Shown: in pieces, positions 2,773 to 31,113 of the stretch | How positions within the stretch are numbered: position 1 is the first letter of the stretch | Layout of the letters: each line of letters begins with the position of its first letter | Source: a virus | Virus record (IMG/VR): IMGVR_UViG_3300044638_001506 | Coordinates: 1 to 42,818 of that record | Strand: one strand, 5' to 3' | DNA length: 42,818 bases | Program-made: the position numbers and the translations under genes | The notes under the pieces: generated by a model | What the model saw: only the letters and a program-made list of their open reading frames with translations | The model's database searches: none | What the model was told of the DNA's origin: nothing

Positions 2773-3077
2773 TAGGAGATCTCTACTCCTCCGATGTGGA
2801 AGTTGATTGTAGTTGCCGAAGCACCACCCTTGATAGTGTTAGTAGTAGCAAGAACCTGCTTGATATCTAGCACAACAGAATCTTTTGCGCCAACTGATAC
2901 AGCGTCAGCGAGCAATACATCATTAAGGGAAACCGTAAAGGTTCCAGCGGATGAGGCGGTATTAGCAACAACAAGGTTTGTGACCACAGCGGTAGTCGCA
3001 GAAGGCACAGTATACAAAGTTGTGCTTGTAGTTGTAGTCGCAGCGCCTCTAAAGAGCGTCTTTGGTGTATTTGGCAT
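2772..3077 (-). CDS. Small tail-fibre-associated beta protein, cassette copy B
   Basis: A 101-aa Thr/Ala/Val-rich protein starting MPNTPKTLFRGAATTTT. It contains TTLYTVPSA near residue 20 and VVTNLVVANTA near 32, which align with the protein at 447-779. No catalytic motif is visible. GGAG lies about 9 nt before the ATG. It is the middle gene of the second three-gene fibre cassette, and its stop overlaps the start of the glycine-rich gene. Function is unknown beyond likely incorporation in the virion. Confidence 0.75.
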   Translation of the reverse strand: MPNTPKTLFRGAATTTTSTTLYTVPSATTAVVTNLVVANTASSAGTFTVSLNDVLLADAVSVGAKDSVVLDIKQVLATTNTIKGGASATTINFHIGGVEIS

Positions 3078-27573: not shown

Positions 27574-28305
27574 ATGGCTAACCCAGAGCTTCCCGCACTG
27601 CCCTTCCAGCAGTTTATTAAAAAGGCAGAGCAACTAAATGCACCTAAGTCAATCCTGATTTATGGTGATCCAAAGAACGGCAAGACATGGCTAGCTGCTT
27701 CAGCAAGTGAAGTTGCAGAGCTAGGTCCGGTCCTTCTAATCGACATCGAGGGCGGAGCTTCCGCAATCGCTCGTGATTGGAGAAACGTTGATGTAATCAG
27801 CGTGGACACATACGAGCAACTCGAGAAGGTAGTTGAGTCTCTCACTGAGACAAAGCACCAATACAAGACCGTGATTCTTGACACACTTGGTGTCGCTATG
27901 GATCGTGCCGAAAAGTTCTTTGCTGAAAAGCCAGAGAACAAGAACAACCGTTTTGGCAAGTGGGGTGACTTGAAGGAGTGGACTAACCAGTTGACTCGCA
28001 AGTTGCACGCTGCCCCATTCTTGACAATCCTGATTGCTCACGCTCAGGATGAGAAAGACGAGCAGACAGGAGCTATAAAGATTCTTCCTATGCTCCCCGG
28101 CTCGGCAAAAAACACCCTGCCAGCAATCCCAGACATCATTGGATATCTGACTGCTGAAAAGGGTGAAGAAGGTATCAGGAGAGTCCTTTACCTTCAGTCA
28201 TCAGATCGATTGGTATCGGGAAACCGATTCGGCTTACCGCCTAAACTTTATGAACCAAGCATGAAGAAGATAATCGACACAATCAAGAAACTAGGAGAAA
28301 AGTAA
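27574..28305 (+). CDS. Sak4-like RecA-fold ATPase (single-strand annealing recombinase)
   Basis: A 243-aa protein. Walker A is YGDPKNGKT (30-38), a LLIDIEGGA strand lies near 54-62, and Walker B is TVILDTLG (99-106). A sensor-like AHAQDEKDEQTG follows near 155 and then SGNRFGLPP near 215. This is the RecA-like core of phage Sak4-type recombinases, without RecA's N- and C-terminal domains. Sak4 anneals single strands with SSB and an exonuclease, and both are present (22143-22526, 26824-27540). GAAAGGAGAAG lies just before the ATG. Confidence 0.86.
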   Translation: MANPELPALPFQQFIKKAEQLNAPKSILIYGDPKNGKTWLAASASEVAELGPVLLIDIEGGASAIARDWRNVDVISVDTYEQLEKVVESLTETKHQYKTVILDTLGVAMDRAEKFFAEKPENKNNRFGKWGDLKEWTNQLTRKLHAAPFLTILIAHAQDEKDEQTGAIKILPMLPGSAKNTLPAIPDIIGYLTAEKGEEGIRRVLYLQSSDRLVSGNRFGLPPKLYEPSMKKIIDTIKKLGEK

Positions 28306-28306
28306 C

Positions 28307-28774
28307 ATGCAAATCTCAGTACCGGATAATCTGCCACAAAGCAGTAACACCAACAGCTACGAGCCGGTTCCTGCCGGTAAGTACGAGACAACTATTTTCG
28401 ACGTTCAGGCTGAGACTGTAAAGTCCGGTCCTAACGAAGGAAAGCCACGCTGGAAAGTTCAGCTAAAGATTGCAGAAGGGCAGTTTGAGAACCGCCGTCT
28501 GTTTGTTCTGATTCCACTTTACGTAGCCGGAGATTTCTGGAAGACACAGAGCTTCTTTGAGTCCGTAGGATACTCTGTAAAGGGAAACTTTAATGTTCCA
28601 GAGATTGCTGAGCTTCTAGGTAAGCCAGTTGTTGCTAGAGTAGTAATCCGTGAAGCACAGGGCGACTACCCAGCAGATAACAATGTTTCTGGATTCGAGA
28701 AGGCATCGCAGAAGTCGGGAGCCGACCTTCTCGCCTCAATGGGCGCAACTCCAACCGACTCCGCCTGGGCATAG
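28307..28774 (+). CDS. DUF669-like recombination/replication accessory protein
   Basis: A 155-aa protein. YEPVPAGKYETTIFDVQAET near 19-38, then PRWKVQLKIAEGQFENRRLF near 48-67 and WKTQSFFESVGY near 80, match DUF669-type proteins, which are often next to Sak4-like ATPases in phages and are probably OB-fold single-strand binders. A flexible Ala/Ser tail ends SAWA. It starts 1 nt after the Sak4-like stop with AGGAGAAAAG inside that gene's end, so the two are coupled. Confidence 0.78.
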   Translation: MQISVPDNLPQSSNTNSYEPVPAGKYETTIFDVQAETVKSGPNEGKPRWKVQLKIAEGQFENRRLFVLIPLYVAGDFWKTQSFFESVGYSVKGNFNVPEIAELLGKPVVARVVIREAQGDYPADNNVSGFEKASQKSGADLLASMGATPTDSAWA

Positions 28775-28914
28775 TCCAGCGGTAAATGACCTGAGCACGT
28801 CTATGTAAACTGCTCACCTGCCACTAACGGTTTATCACAGCTTCTTCTCCTTTCACTGTGATGGTAAGTTCGATTCTTACGGTGGTACGAAACGGAGAAG
28901 AAGAAAGGTACCAA
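28774..28914 (+). ncRNA. tRNA-like, pseudoknot-capable leader of the primase-helicase gene
   Basis: This 140-nt non-coding stretch contains a perfect T-arm (stem 28864-28868/28876-28880, loop TTCGATT) that directly abuts 28881-28887. That segment pairs with 28819-28825 as a 7-bp acceptor-like stem (two G-U). A hairpin 28835-28840/28856-28861 has a 15-nt loop whose first ten bases (28841-28850) are exactly complementary to 28894-28903, the purine tract before the TTG start. A D-arm-like GTCCAGCGGTAAATGAC lies at 28774-28790 and a further hairpin at 28792-28816. No canonical tRNA with a 7-nt anticodon loop folds. It may be a regulatory tRNA mimic or a decayed tRNA. Confidence 0.4.
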
Positions 28915-31113
28915 TTGGATTCAAGAATATTTTTCGAGTCGGTGTTTGGAGACGGCACTGGCTTTGCGACCATAGTAACTATGGATCAGCGAAAGAATCC
29001 GACTGTCCAAAAGTTTTTTGATTACCCTACACAACTTGATTCAATGGTTGAATATGTAGAAAGATTTATCGAAGAAGATGTTTACTTCTCTCCAATCTTG
29101 TTCCACGAAGAGCGCAGAATCCGTGAGAATGCAAAAGAAGTTTCTGTAGTCTACGCAGACGCAGACGCTTGCCCACCTGAGAAGTTTATTGTCAGACCTT
29201 CTATCTCGGTCCAGACTTCACCTGACCGCTGGCACTGCTACTGGATGCTTGAGAAGCCTTACGAGCCTCACGTAATCGCAACTATGTCTAAGAAGGTTGC
29301 CTACCGACACAGAGAAGATGGCTGCGACCTATCTGGCTGGAATCCAACCAAGCTACTTCGTGTGCCCGGAACTCGCAACGGCAAATACGAAAATCAGTCT
29401 TACTCGGTAATCGGAAGCACCTCTGGCGAAATTTATACACTTGCAGAGATTGAGCAAGTCTACGGTGGCACAGAGATTGAACCAATCACCGAAGTAAGTC
29501 TTGAGCCAATGCCGGTTGCATCTGCGGATGTTATGGCAGTGCTGGCTAAGGTCCCTGGAAACTCAGAAGTTATCGGCTTGTATCTTGAAGAGCCACCAAT
29601 GAATGCAGACTGGTCACGCAGGCTTTGGAAGTTAGAGATGGAATTGTTCCGTCTAAACTTTACGCCAGAAGAAGTTTTTGTAATTGCAAAGCATGCCAAG
29701 TGCAACAAGTACCACTCACCACTACGCCCAAAGCGCCTCGATGCAGATGGCGATCTATGGCGTGAGATTCTTAGGTGCGCTCAATCTTTCAAGGCGGAAC
29801 CGACAGCACAATACACACTCGATGAAATTGACAAAAGCACTCAGAAGCCTGTGGACTTTTTGACCGAAGATGAGCGTGGGATTGTTGCAACTACCAAAAC
29901 TTTTGTTGATCGTTATGTTGACTGGGCTCAAAGAAAAACAGATGCTGCAGTTCAGTATCAGATTGCTGGAGCCTTTACAATTCTCTCGTCTTGCTTCTCA
30001 GACACCGGACACGCAGTTCCTAAGTACGGCAAGATGGGACTCAACCTTTGGTTTATGATTCTGGGGGAAACTACCCGAAGCCGTAAGTCAACCTCACGTC
30101 AACTGATGCTAAGGATTGTGCGTGAGTACGAGAAGTTTGCTGGCTACCAGATTGACGTTGGTTCTGACGTGACTGCAGAAGGTCTAGTCAAGCTACTCTC
30201 AGGCAGAGACAAGCAGACATCACTATTCCACCGTGACGAAGTTCAGGGTATGTTCAAAGATTTTATCAACAAGACCTACATGGCAACTGCAGCAGAGCGT
30301 TTCACAGAGCTTTACGACGGGCACGTACCGGTTATTGTGCGCTCAACTGGCGGCACTACCGTTGGCAAGGGAATGCAGTCCGAGCGAGCTGAGACTAACT
30401 TCTTAATGTACCTTATGGGTATCACAAGCAAGACTGCTGACATTTTGACAACCGAGTATTTCCGGTCTGGATTCCTAGCCCGATTTATCTACGTAATCGC
30501 AGATGCACCTGACCGCACTTACGAGAGCGAAGCAATCACTCAGGCAGATGAAGTTGAGATTCGCACAAGAGATGACGAGATGGATAACATTGTGCGCTCT
30601 CTTTACGATGCTTACTTGTTCTGGCAGAAGAAGGGTGCGCCATTCCCAAGGGCAATCCGTTTGACCGACGAAGCTCTTGAGCGATTCAATAAGTTCAAGT
30701 GGGAGATGGGCGAGTATGTTCAGGGTCACGACCACGAGGAATCAATCGAGCCTAGCCGTCAGCGACTTGCGCTATCGATCTGGAAGTGTGCAATTCTAAT
30801 TGCAATGTATGACAAGTCGGACGAAGTAGAACTAAAGCACATGCTTATTGCTATCCACTATTCAGAAGATTGGTTCCGCAACCTTGTGAGAATGGCTGGC
30901 GCTATCTCAGCTTCAGAGTGGCAGAGGGAAGTCGATCAGGTTGAGAGCATGATTGCAGCTAAGGGCGGTCGGATGCGCTATGAAGAAGTTTACAAGCGCT
31001 TTGCAAACAAGCGTAAGCGTGAGTTTGATGAGATGCTTGATGCTCTAAAGTCTCAGGGTCGCCTTGGTGTGTCTAGTGAAGCCGGAAAGATTTACTTAGA
31101 GGTAAACGTCTAA
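28915..31113 (+). CDS. Primase-helicase (AEP-type primase domain plus SF3/DUF3987-like ATPase)
   Basis: I choose TTG 28915, 6 nt after AGAAAGG, giving 732 aa starting with (M)DSRIFFESVFGDGTG. An ATG at 28861 has no ribosome site and would lie in the structured leader. The primase part has the catalytic VVYADADACPP (Asp82, Asp84), the QTSPDRWHCYW motif near 100-110 and LLRVPGTRNGK near 148, as in archaeo-eukaryotic-type phage primases. A C-terminal ATPase has Walker A GETTRSRKST (about 383-392) and HRDEVQGM near 440. It would prime and unwind the phage fork. No polymerase is in the window. Confidence 0.87.
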   Translation: MDSRIFFESVFGDGTGFATIVTMDQRKNPTVQKFFDYPTQLDSMVEYVERFIEEDVYFSPILFHEERRIRENAKEVSVVYADADACPPEKFIVRPSISVQTSPDRWHCYWMLEKPYEPHVIATMSKKVAYRHREDGCDLSGWNPTKLLRVPGTRNGKYENQSYSVIGSTSGEIYTLAEIEQVYGGTEIEPITEVSLEPMPVASADVMAVLAKVPGNSEVIGLYLEEPPMNADWSRRLWKLEMELFRLNFTPEEVFVIAKHAKCNKYHSPLRPKRLDADGDLWREILRCAQSFKAEPTAQYTLDEIDKSTQKPVDFLTEDERGIVATTKTFVDRYVDWAQRKTDAAVQYQIAGAFTILSSCFSDTGHAVPKYGKMGLNLWFMILGETTRSRKSTSRQLMLRIVREYEKFAGYQIDVGSDVTAEGLVKLLSGRDKQTSLFHRDEVQGMFKDFINKTYMATAAERFTELYDGHVPVIVRSTGGTTVGKGMQSERAETNFLMYLMGITSKTADILTTEYFRSGFLARFIYVIADAPDRTYESEAITQADEVEIRTRDDEMDNIVRSLYDAYLFWQKKGAPFPRAIRLTDEALERFNKFKWEMGEYVQGHDHEESIEPSRQRLALSIWKCAILIAMYDKSDEVELKHMLIAIHYSEDWFRNLVRMAGAISASEWQREVDQVESMIAAKGGRMRYEEVYKRFANKRKREFDEMLDALKSQGRLGVSSEAGKIYLEVNV

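Follow-up and report, generated by a model that had tools for sequence, protein, structure and literature searches.

What occupies the stretch that separates an SSB-like gene from a primase-helicase gene in this phage (positions 28774-28914), and could it govern how the primase is made? The window, by which we mean the whole 42,818-nt stretch of DNA analysed (IMG/VR virus record IMGVR_UViG_3300044638_001506), had been examined earlier from its letters alone. This original prediction described a T-arm, a zero-spaced acceptor-like stem, a hairpin with a 15-nt loop and ten loop bases complementary to the ribosome-site region of the primase, and all four are present where it placed them. It missed a pseudoknot module and a tRNA-style 3' end common to the phages' real tRNAs. 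As judged by sequence comparison, positions 28788-28888 are one member of a conserved RNA composed of two modules, a pseudoknot and a tRNA-like domain. The features of the locus are as follows.

27574-28305, plus strand: Sak4-like ssDNA-annealing ATPase, with GAAAGGAGAAG, the loop's other best match, as its Shine-Dalgarno (SD) sequence.
28307-28774, plus strand: SSB-like protein (DUF669), the gene upstream of the RNA element.
28788-28816, plus strand: H-type pseudoknot with S1 (28788-28790/28799-28801), S2 (28792-28797/28811-28816) and an A-containing loop 3 (28802-28810).
28820-28825, plus strand: 5' strand of the acceptor-like stem, supported by covariation; T28819 adds a seventh pair here, and C3-G70 is 99% conserved.
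28826-28832, plus strand: D-loop-like linker AACGGTT without a D-stem; G28829 and G28830 correspond to tRNA G18 and G19 (97% and 100% conserved among 74 distinct sequences).
28833-28863, plus strand: long hairpin replacing the anticodon arm (8 bp, 28833-28840/28856-28863), supported by covariation.
28841-28855, plus strand: 15-nt anti-SD-like loop CTTCTTCTCCTTTCA; its duplex with the primase leader is computed at -17.0 kcal/mol.
28864-28880, plus strand: T-arm GTAAG-TTCGATT-CTTAC, with the T-loop invariants, 100% of cells paired and compensatory changes (42 sequences).
28881-28886, plus strand: 3' strand of the acceptor-like stem, supported by covariation.
28887-28888, plus strand: A73-C74, discriminator and first C of CCA (C74 in 74/74 sequences, A73 in 97%).
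28889-28908, plus strand: primase leader GAAACGGAGAAGAAGAAAGG, the target of the loop, with the SD core AAAGG at 28904-28908.
28915-31113, plus strand: primase-helicase (DUF3987; PHROG 10514 DNA primase); start TTG 28915 assigned by comparison with L002 and L003.

The acceptor 3' strand GGTGGTA (28881-28887) adjoins the T-arm with zero spacing and has TGCCACT (28819-28825) as its partner. Comparison with relatives places the acceptor best at G28820-T28825 and makes A28887 the discriminator and C28888 the equivalent of C74. On its own, the tRNA-like part (28819-28888) folds at -18.3 kcal/mol (z = -2.56). A hairpin of 5-8 bp with a loop of 11-24 nt occupies the anticodon-arm position across the relatives. 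Among 74 distinct sequences G18, G19, G53, T54, T55, C56, G57, A58, T60, C61, C3-G70, A73 and C74 are 97-100% conserved, and the tRNA elbow bases G19, G53-T-T-C56, A58 and C61 are invariant, as is C74. Most of these conserved bases are the ones that lock the D-loop to the T-loop in real tRNAs. Set beside the canonical tRNA family (RF00005), the element has the acceptor, the T-arm and the elbow bases; the D-stem is absent and the loop has 11-24 nt instead of 7, so that overall it falls outside the family.

A viral-contig search with the primase as query yielded 69 loci, and the same two-module RNA can be read in the DNA upstream of the relatives' primase genes. Of the 69 loci, 66 have it at the same junction between SSB and primase; the sequence of the remaining three reaches no further than 201 nt upstream of their primase match. 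Loss of both the pairing and the T-arm in relatives that retain the gene had been named in advance as counter-evidence; we looked for such cases and found the element kept wherever a relative offers enough sequence upstream. Searches for tRNAs and structured RNAs had been proposed as a check by the original prediction. ARAGORN reported 0 tRNAs and no tmRNA in the window, Rfam had 0 matches there at the gathering score, and at E ≤ 1 it placed none on the element in seven sources, six relatives included. R1, a covariance model made from 42 sequences and spanning the tRNA-like domain plus the flank on its 5' side, matches the 66 loci and scores the window element at 73 bits. Members that were not in its seed reach 92.5 (L024), 85.4 (L021) and 80.9 bits (L020); the real tRNAs of these loci do not exceed about 29 bits. 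tRNA finders overlook a conserved RNA that is present in dozens of viral contigs.

Each phage record searched holds one strong copy of the element. Bacterial genome contigs contained no host or prophage copy, whether searched by primase profile or by pseudoknot pattern. The nearest named primases come from phages of Arthrobacter, Curtobacterium, Streptomyces and Clavibacter, which makes an actinobacterial host likely for the window phage. The element was not found at the junctions of Curtobacterium phage Nonagon, Streptomyces phage Kradal and Clavibacter phage CMP1. In CMP1 (L162:327-700), a non-coding, hairpin-rich stretch of about 370 nt, unrelated to R1 by model search, lies immediately before the primase homologue.

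An alignment of the leader in relatives, likewise suggested at the outset, reveals compensatory changes: 17 of 19 pairs in the tRNA-like domain have changed on both sides among 42 aligned sequences. Pairing is found in 88.2% of cells, compared with 64.4% in shuffled alignments (0/500) and 31-49% in slid versions. These data bear out the claim of a genuine tRNA mimic, and we regard the structure of the two-module RNA as near certain. Compensatory change and conserved structure in homologues rule out chance or decay as its origin. A decayed class II tRNA gene, which the original prediction had kept as its alternative, would account for the tRNA-looking T-arm and acceptor, but is contradicted by compensatory changes throughout the element, by relatives without D-stem or anticodon and by its universal retention, and ARAGORN finds no tRNA; we give it virtually no credence. 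Chance hairpins in the leader would likewise have to be an extraordinary coincidence: a test on the single sequence finds them only moderately unlikely, but 74 distinct homologues share the conserved structure.

The upstream D-arm-like motif invoked for such a tRNA is not conserved. It occurs only in close relatives of the window, and in the others GGGC and pseudoknot stem 1 take its place; the stretch overlaps the H-type pseudoknot at 28788-28816. In 12 relatives of the same length, 100% of pseudoknot cells are paired, with double changes in both stems; none of 500 shuffles attained this pairing (0/500), and slid versions are 21-40% paired. A search pattern made from the pseudoknot alone returned 24 further loci that were tested with R1, and all 24 carry a tRNA-like domain downstream. 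Comparative analysis of the sequences thus establishes both modules and their pairing. Two other readings of this 5' region were set aside. The conserved 5' GGGC can pair with the acceptor 5' strand in many sequences, yet GGGC is constant while the acceptor varies. A small ORF from AATGGGC has a frame that is not conserved among relatives, as read by eye.

The tRNA-like domain ends directly in the DNA with A73-C74. Genuine tRNAs of these phages (Asn, Thr, Trp) also encode the discriminator and a C, and usually not the whole CCA; nearly all tRNAs of the phage group (L009-L144) encode only the first C (N73-C74). Because the element has this 3' end in common with the phages' real tRNAs, its sequence suggests, but does not prove, that it is matured and CCA-tailed like a tRNA. 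Such processing could be its entire function. The element would then be an operon-processing or stability signal, an RNase P/RNase Z site that splits the SSB from the primase mRNA, with the pseudoknot capping the SSB 3' end and the loop being incidental. This fits a position between two co-directional genes, the additional tRNAs that many relatives carry at the junction, and Arthrobacter phage Amigo, where the pseudoknot lies immediately 5' of an annotated tRNA gene at the same junction. We nevertheless find it rather improbable, as it leaves two properties of the loop unexplained: its CTCC core and its co-change with the leader near the primase.

CTCC, the anti-SD core of 16S rRNA, is found in 35 of 37 distinct loops, compared with 9.7 expected from composition, and CTCCTT in 33 of 37 (3.9 expected). 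The anti-SD-like character that the original prediction ascribed to the loop is therefore a conserved property of the sequences. L027 has lost CTCC. Five loci (L143, L145, L146, L148 and L152) have a longer two-tier hairpin instead of the simple loop hairpin, L152 being without the CTCC core.

On the mRNA side, the primase SD AAAGG (28904-28908) lies ahead of the start TTG 28915. Translation from 28861 through the RNA element, raised earlier as a point that would count against the structure, is unlikely because in the relative L003 an in-frame TAA directly precedes the ATG homologous to this TTG. Ten loop bases (28841-28850) find a perfect complement in GGAGAAGAAG (28894-28903), a match that extends to 14 bp with one bulged C; CTTCTTCTCC is a segment of the loop. 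The perfect 10-mer match is located just upstream of the SD core, not on it. A 10-nt match to the site arose in 320 of 20,000 shuffled loops, and in 58 of 20,000 trials with both sides shuffled; in the single sequence it is only moderately unlikely by chance.

We therefore compared loops and leaders across loci. In abutting loci (element-to-primase gap about 14-43 nt, the window among them), loops pair better with the primase leader of their locus than with leaders from elsewhere: judged by duplex energy, 0/20,000 permutations equalled this fit with all rows and 274/20,000 with one row per clade (p 0.014). An own-versus-other test by ensemble folding gave p 0.025 by row and about 0.10 by clade. 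About half of the relatives have real tRNA genes between the element and the primase, and in these loci the duplex energies do not stand out from those of permuted pairings (3166/20,000). The primase protein tree has two well supported clades, and the SD-matching C-to-G change after the CTCCTTT core is essentially one event, mainly one split of that tree. By these tests, coevolution of loop and primase site is clear in the window's own subclade and weak at the level of clades.

A different possibility is that the RNA acts in trans, as an excised, stable, tRNA-shaped small RNA whose anti-SD loop rivals 16S rRNA on many phage or host mRNAs and has no special role in cis. The CTCC core is conserved in all clades, the element has a tRNA-style 3' end and is kept where tRNAs separate it from the primase, and the loop also pairs strongly with the Sak4-like SD. 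When the 51 genes of the window were ranked for pairing with the loop, the Sak4-like gene came first (-17.4) and the primase second (-17.0). A purely trans role sits less well with the additional pairing potential that loops of the window's subclade have for the primase leader beside them, and with the loop flank, which in one major clade reads TTTGT and not TTTCT as in 16S rRNA. We consider it unlikely as the sole explanation, though a credible one.

Where the element abuts the primase, the loop could take part in two folds. In the nested fold of the window leader, 14 loop bases pair with 28889-28903 around one bulge at -37.8 kcal/mol, and in 17 abutting loci the free fold lies 2.8-21.7 kcal/mol below the tRNA-like fold; as ViennaRNA leaves pseudoknots unscored, these energies give no more than an indication, and a combined fold is possible. 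The loop/leader helix of the window keeps the T-arm and breaks the acceptor and the hairpin. In 16 of the 17 loci the minimum-energy nested fold joins five or more loop bases to sequence 3' of the element. By these models, a helix between loop and ribosome site can exclude the tRNA-like fold where element and primase abut. The hallmark of an SD-sequestering switch, mutually exclusive folds of which one hides the SD region, is predicted in most abutting loci, with specificity that is borderline at clade level (p 0.014 by duplex and 0.10 by ensemble). The switch on the primase start put forward in the original prediction thus remains plausible; an exclusively cis form is not supported, as tRNA genes intervene in about half of the relatives and no special duplex-energy fit is seen there.

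The reading we favour, which we put at about an even chance, is a leader RNA that mimics a tRNA, is probably matured like phage tRNAs and would occupy the primase SD in competition with 16S rRNA. RNase P and a 3' tRNA nuclease would cut the tRNA-like domain, which would then receive CCA, as phage tRNAs do. Its loop, imitating the 3' tail of 16S rRNA, would pair with SD sites in vivo and restrain translation initiation, the chief target in the window's clade being the adjacent primase. So long as one transcript carries both the element and the primase leader, two states would be open to the loop: retention in the tRNA-like fold, or pairing with the ribosome site of the primase. The tRNA-like fold would form first during transcription and could be removed by processing, leaving a short free leader from near 28889; in the sequestered fold the primase would be off. 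How folding, processing and a tRNA-binding factor balance one another may, we infer, regulate the primase by setting the timing of its synthesis.

Related RNAs were noticed in the loci scanned. A tRNA-like domain with a TTCTCCTTT loop (39.9 bits) is found in a 104-kb phage contig (L163:4178-4252, also L125), a different large phage, without pseudoknot or tRNAs nearby and with a weaker second match at 2930-3007. Pattern matches with TTCTCCTTT in L092, L094, L112, L115, L120 and L122 were rejected as false positives, their inner arm being a 7-nt anticodon loop, TTTGCAC, as in tRNA-Ala(TGC). These six are divergent tRNA-Ala(TGC)-like genes with G3-U70 and an apparently atypical D-arm, reading GGGCTTGCATG...TCTCC TTTGCAC GGAGA...GGGTCCAC. 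Another tRNA-like RNA, about 80 nt long and distinct from the element, occurs in relatives at L021:3889-3970, L033:1539-1620, L069:3888-3969, L009:9751-9831 and L011:8756-8837. It has tmRNA-like ends (GGG..TG...GGTTTCGA...CAGGTCCAC) and G3-U70, no D-stem and no mRNA-like region; its inner hairpin often contains CCGTAYACGG, and it resembles the tmRNA tRNA-like domain without the tag part. A regex search found no copy of it in the window, and neither ARAGORN nor Rfam calls it in the loci scanned.

Known tRNA-like RNAs include those of plant RNA viruses, tmRNA and a few bacterial leaders. The plant-virus structures (TMV/TYMV type) lie at RNA genome 3' ends, where the class is defined by a terminal CCA that can be aminoacylated, and form their acceptor by a pseudoknot. 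They share with our element a pseudoknot domain directly 5' of the tRNA-like domain, whereas the element is internal in a dsDNA phage, has an ordinary acceptor stem and encodes C74 in DNA. Sequestration of the SD by riboswitches and RNA thermometers likewise involves mutually exclusive folds, one hiding the ribosome site; in the element a tRNA mimic supplies the anti-SD strand through its loop, and no ligand is known. The operator of E. coli thrS mRNA is a tRNA-like leader bound by ThrRS (PMC5723415), and is similar in placing a tRNA-like structure near the ribosome site, tied to translation control. It mimics the anticodon arm of tRNA-Thr, whereas the element has no anticodon arm and instead a T-arm and acceptor, A73-C74, a pseudoknot and an anti-SD loop; a thrS-type leader combines an anticodon-like loop with a synthetase gene downstream, the element an anti-SD-like loop with a primase in a phage replication operon. 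The tRNA-like domain of tmRNA has a deformed D-arm and a conserved G3-U70 pair (PMC3985003). Acceptor, T-arm, deformed D-arm, missing anticodon and a pseudoknot are common to both RNAs; the element differs in having C3-G70 (99% conserved) and not G3-U70, no coding segment, and its pseudoknot 5' of the acceptor. No tmRNA was recognised on the element by ARAGORN, or by Rfam at E ≤ 1 in representatives.

A further likeness is at the SSB-primase junction of Arthrobacter phage Amigo (NC_041949), which has the same pseudoknot (27 of 29 bases matching) and then an RNA with A73-C74; unlike the element, this is an annotated tRNA-Gly with a D-stem-like arm and no anti-SD loop. The pseudoknot itself is unannotated (L071:2993-3109), and ARAGORN cannot name the anticodon of the tRNA. 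As Amigo is in culture, the pseudoknot is open to experiment there.

A literature search returned no prior description of the element, which is not proof of novelty as most subscription papers lay outside its reach, and we found no account of a dsDNA-phage tRNA-like RNA with an anti-SD loop and an upstream pseudoknot. Tentatively, and at somewhat less than an even chance, we propose a phage RNA class not described before: tRNA-shaped and probably tRNA-processed, with a copy of the anti-SD tail in place of the anticodon, which would capture mRNA starts in cis and in trans and so time gene expression. The logic of loop and processing is directly testable with ordinary reporters. If the element acts as proposed, it would represent a new control of translation initiation, with tRNA-processing enzymes as a possible switch.
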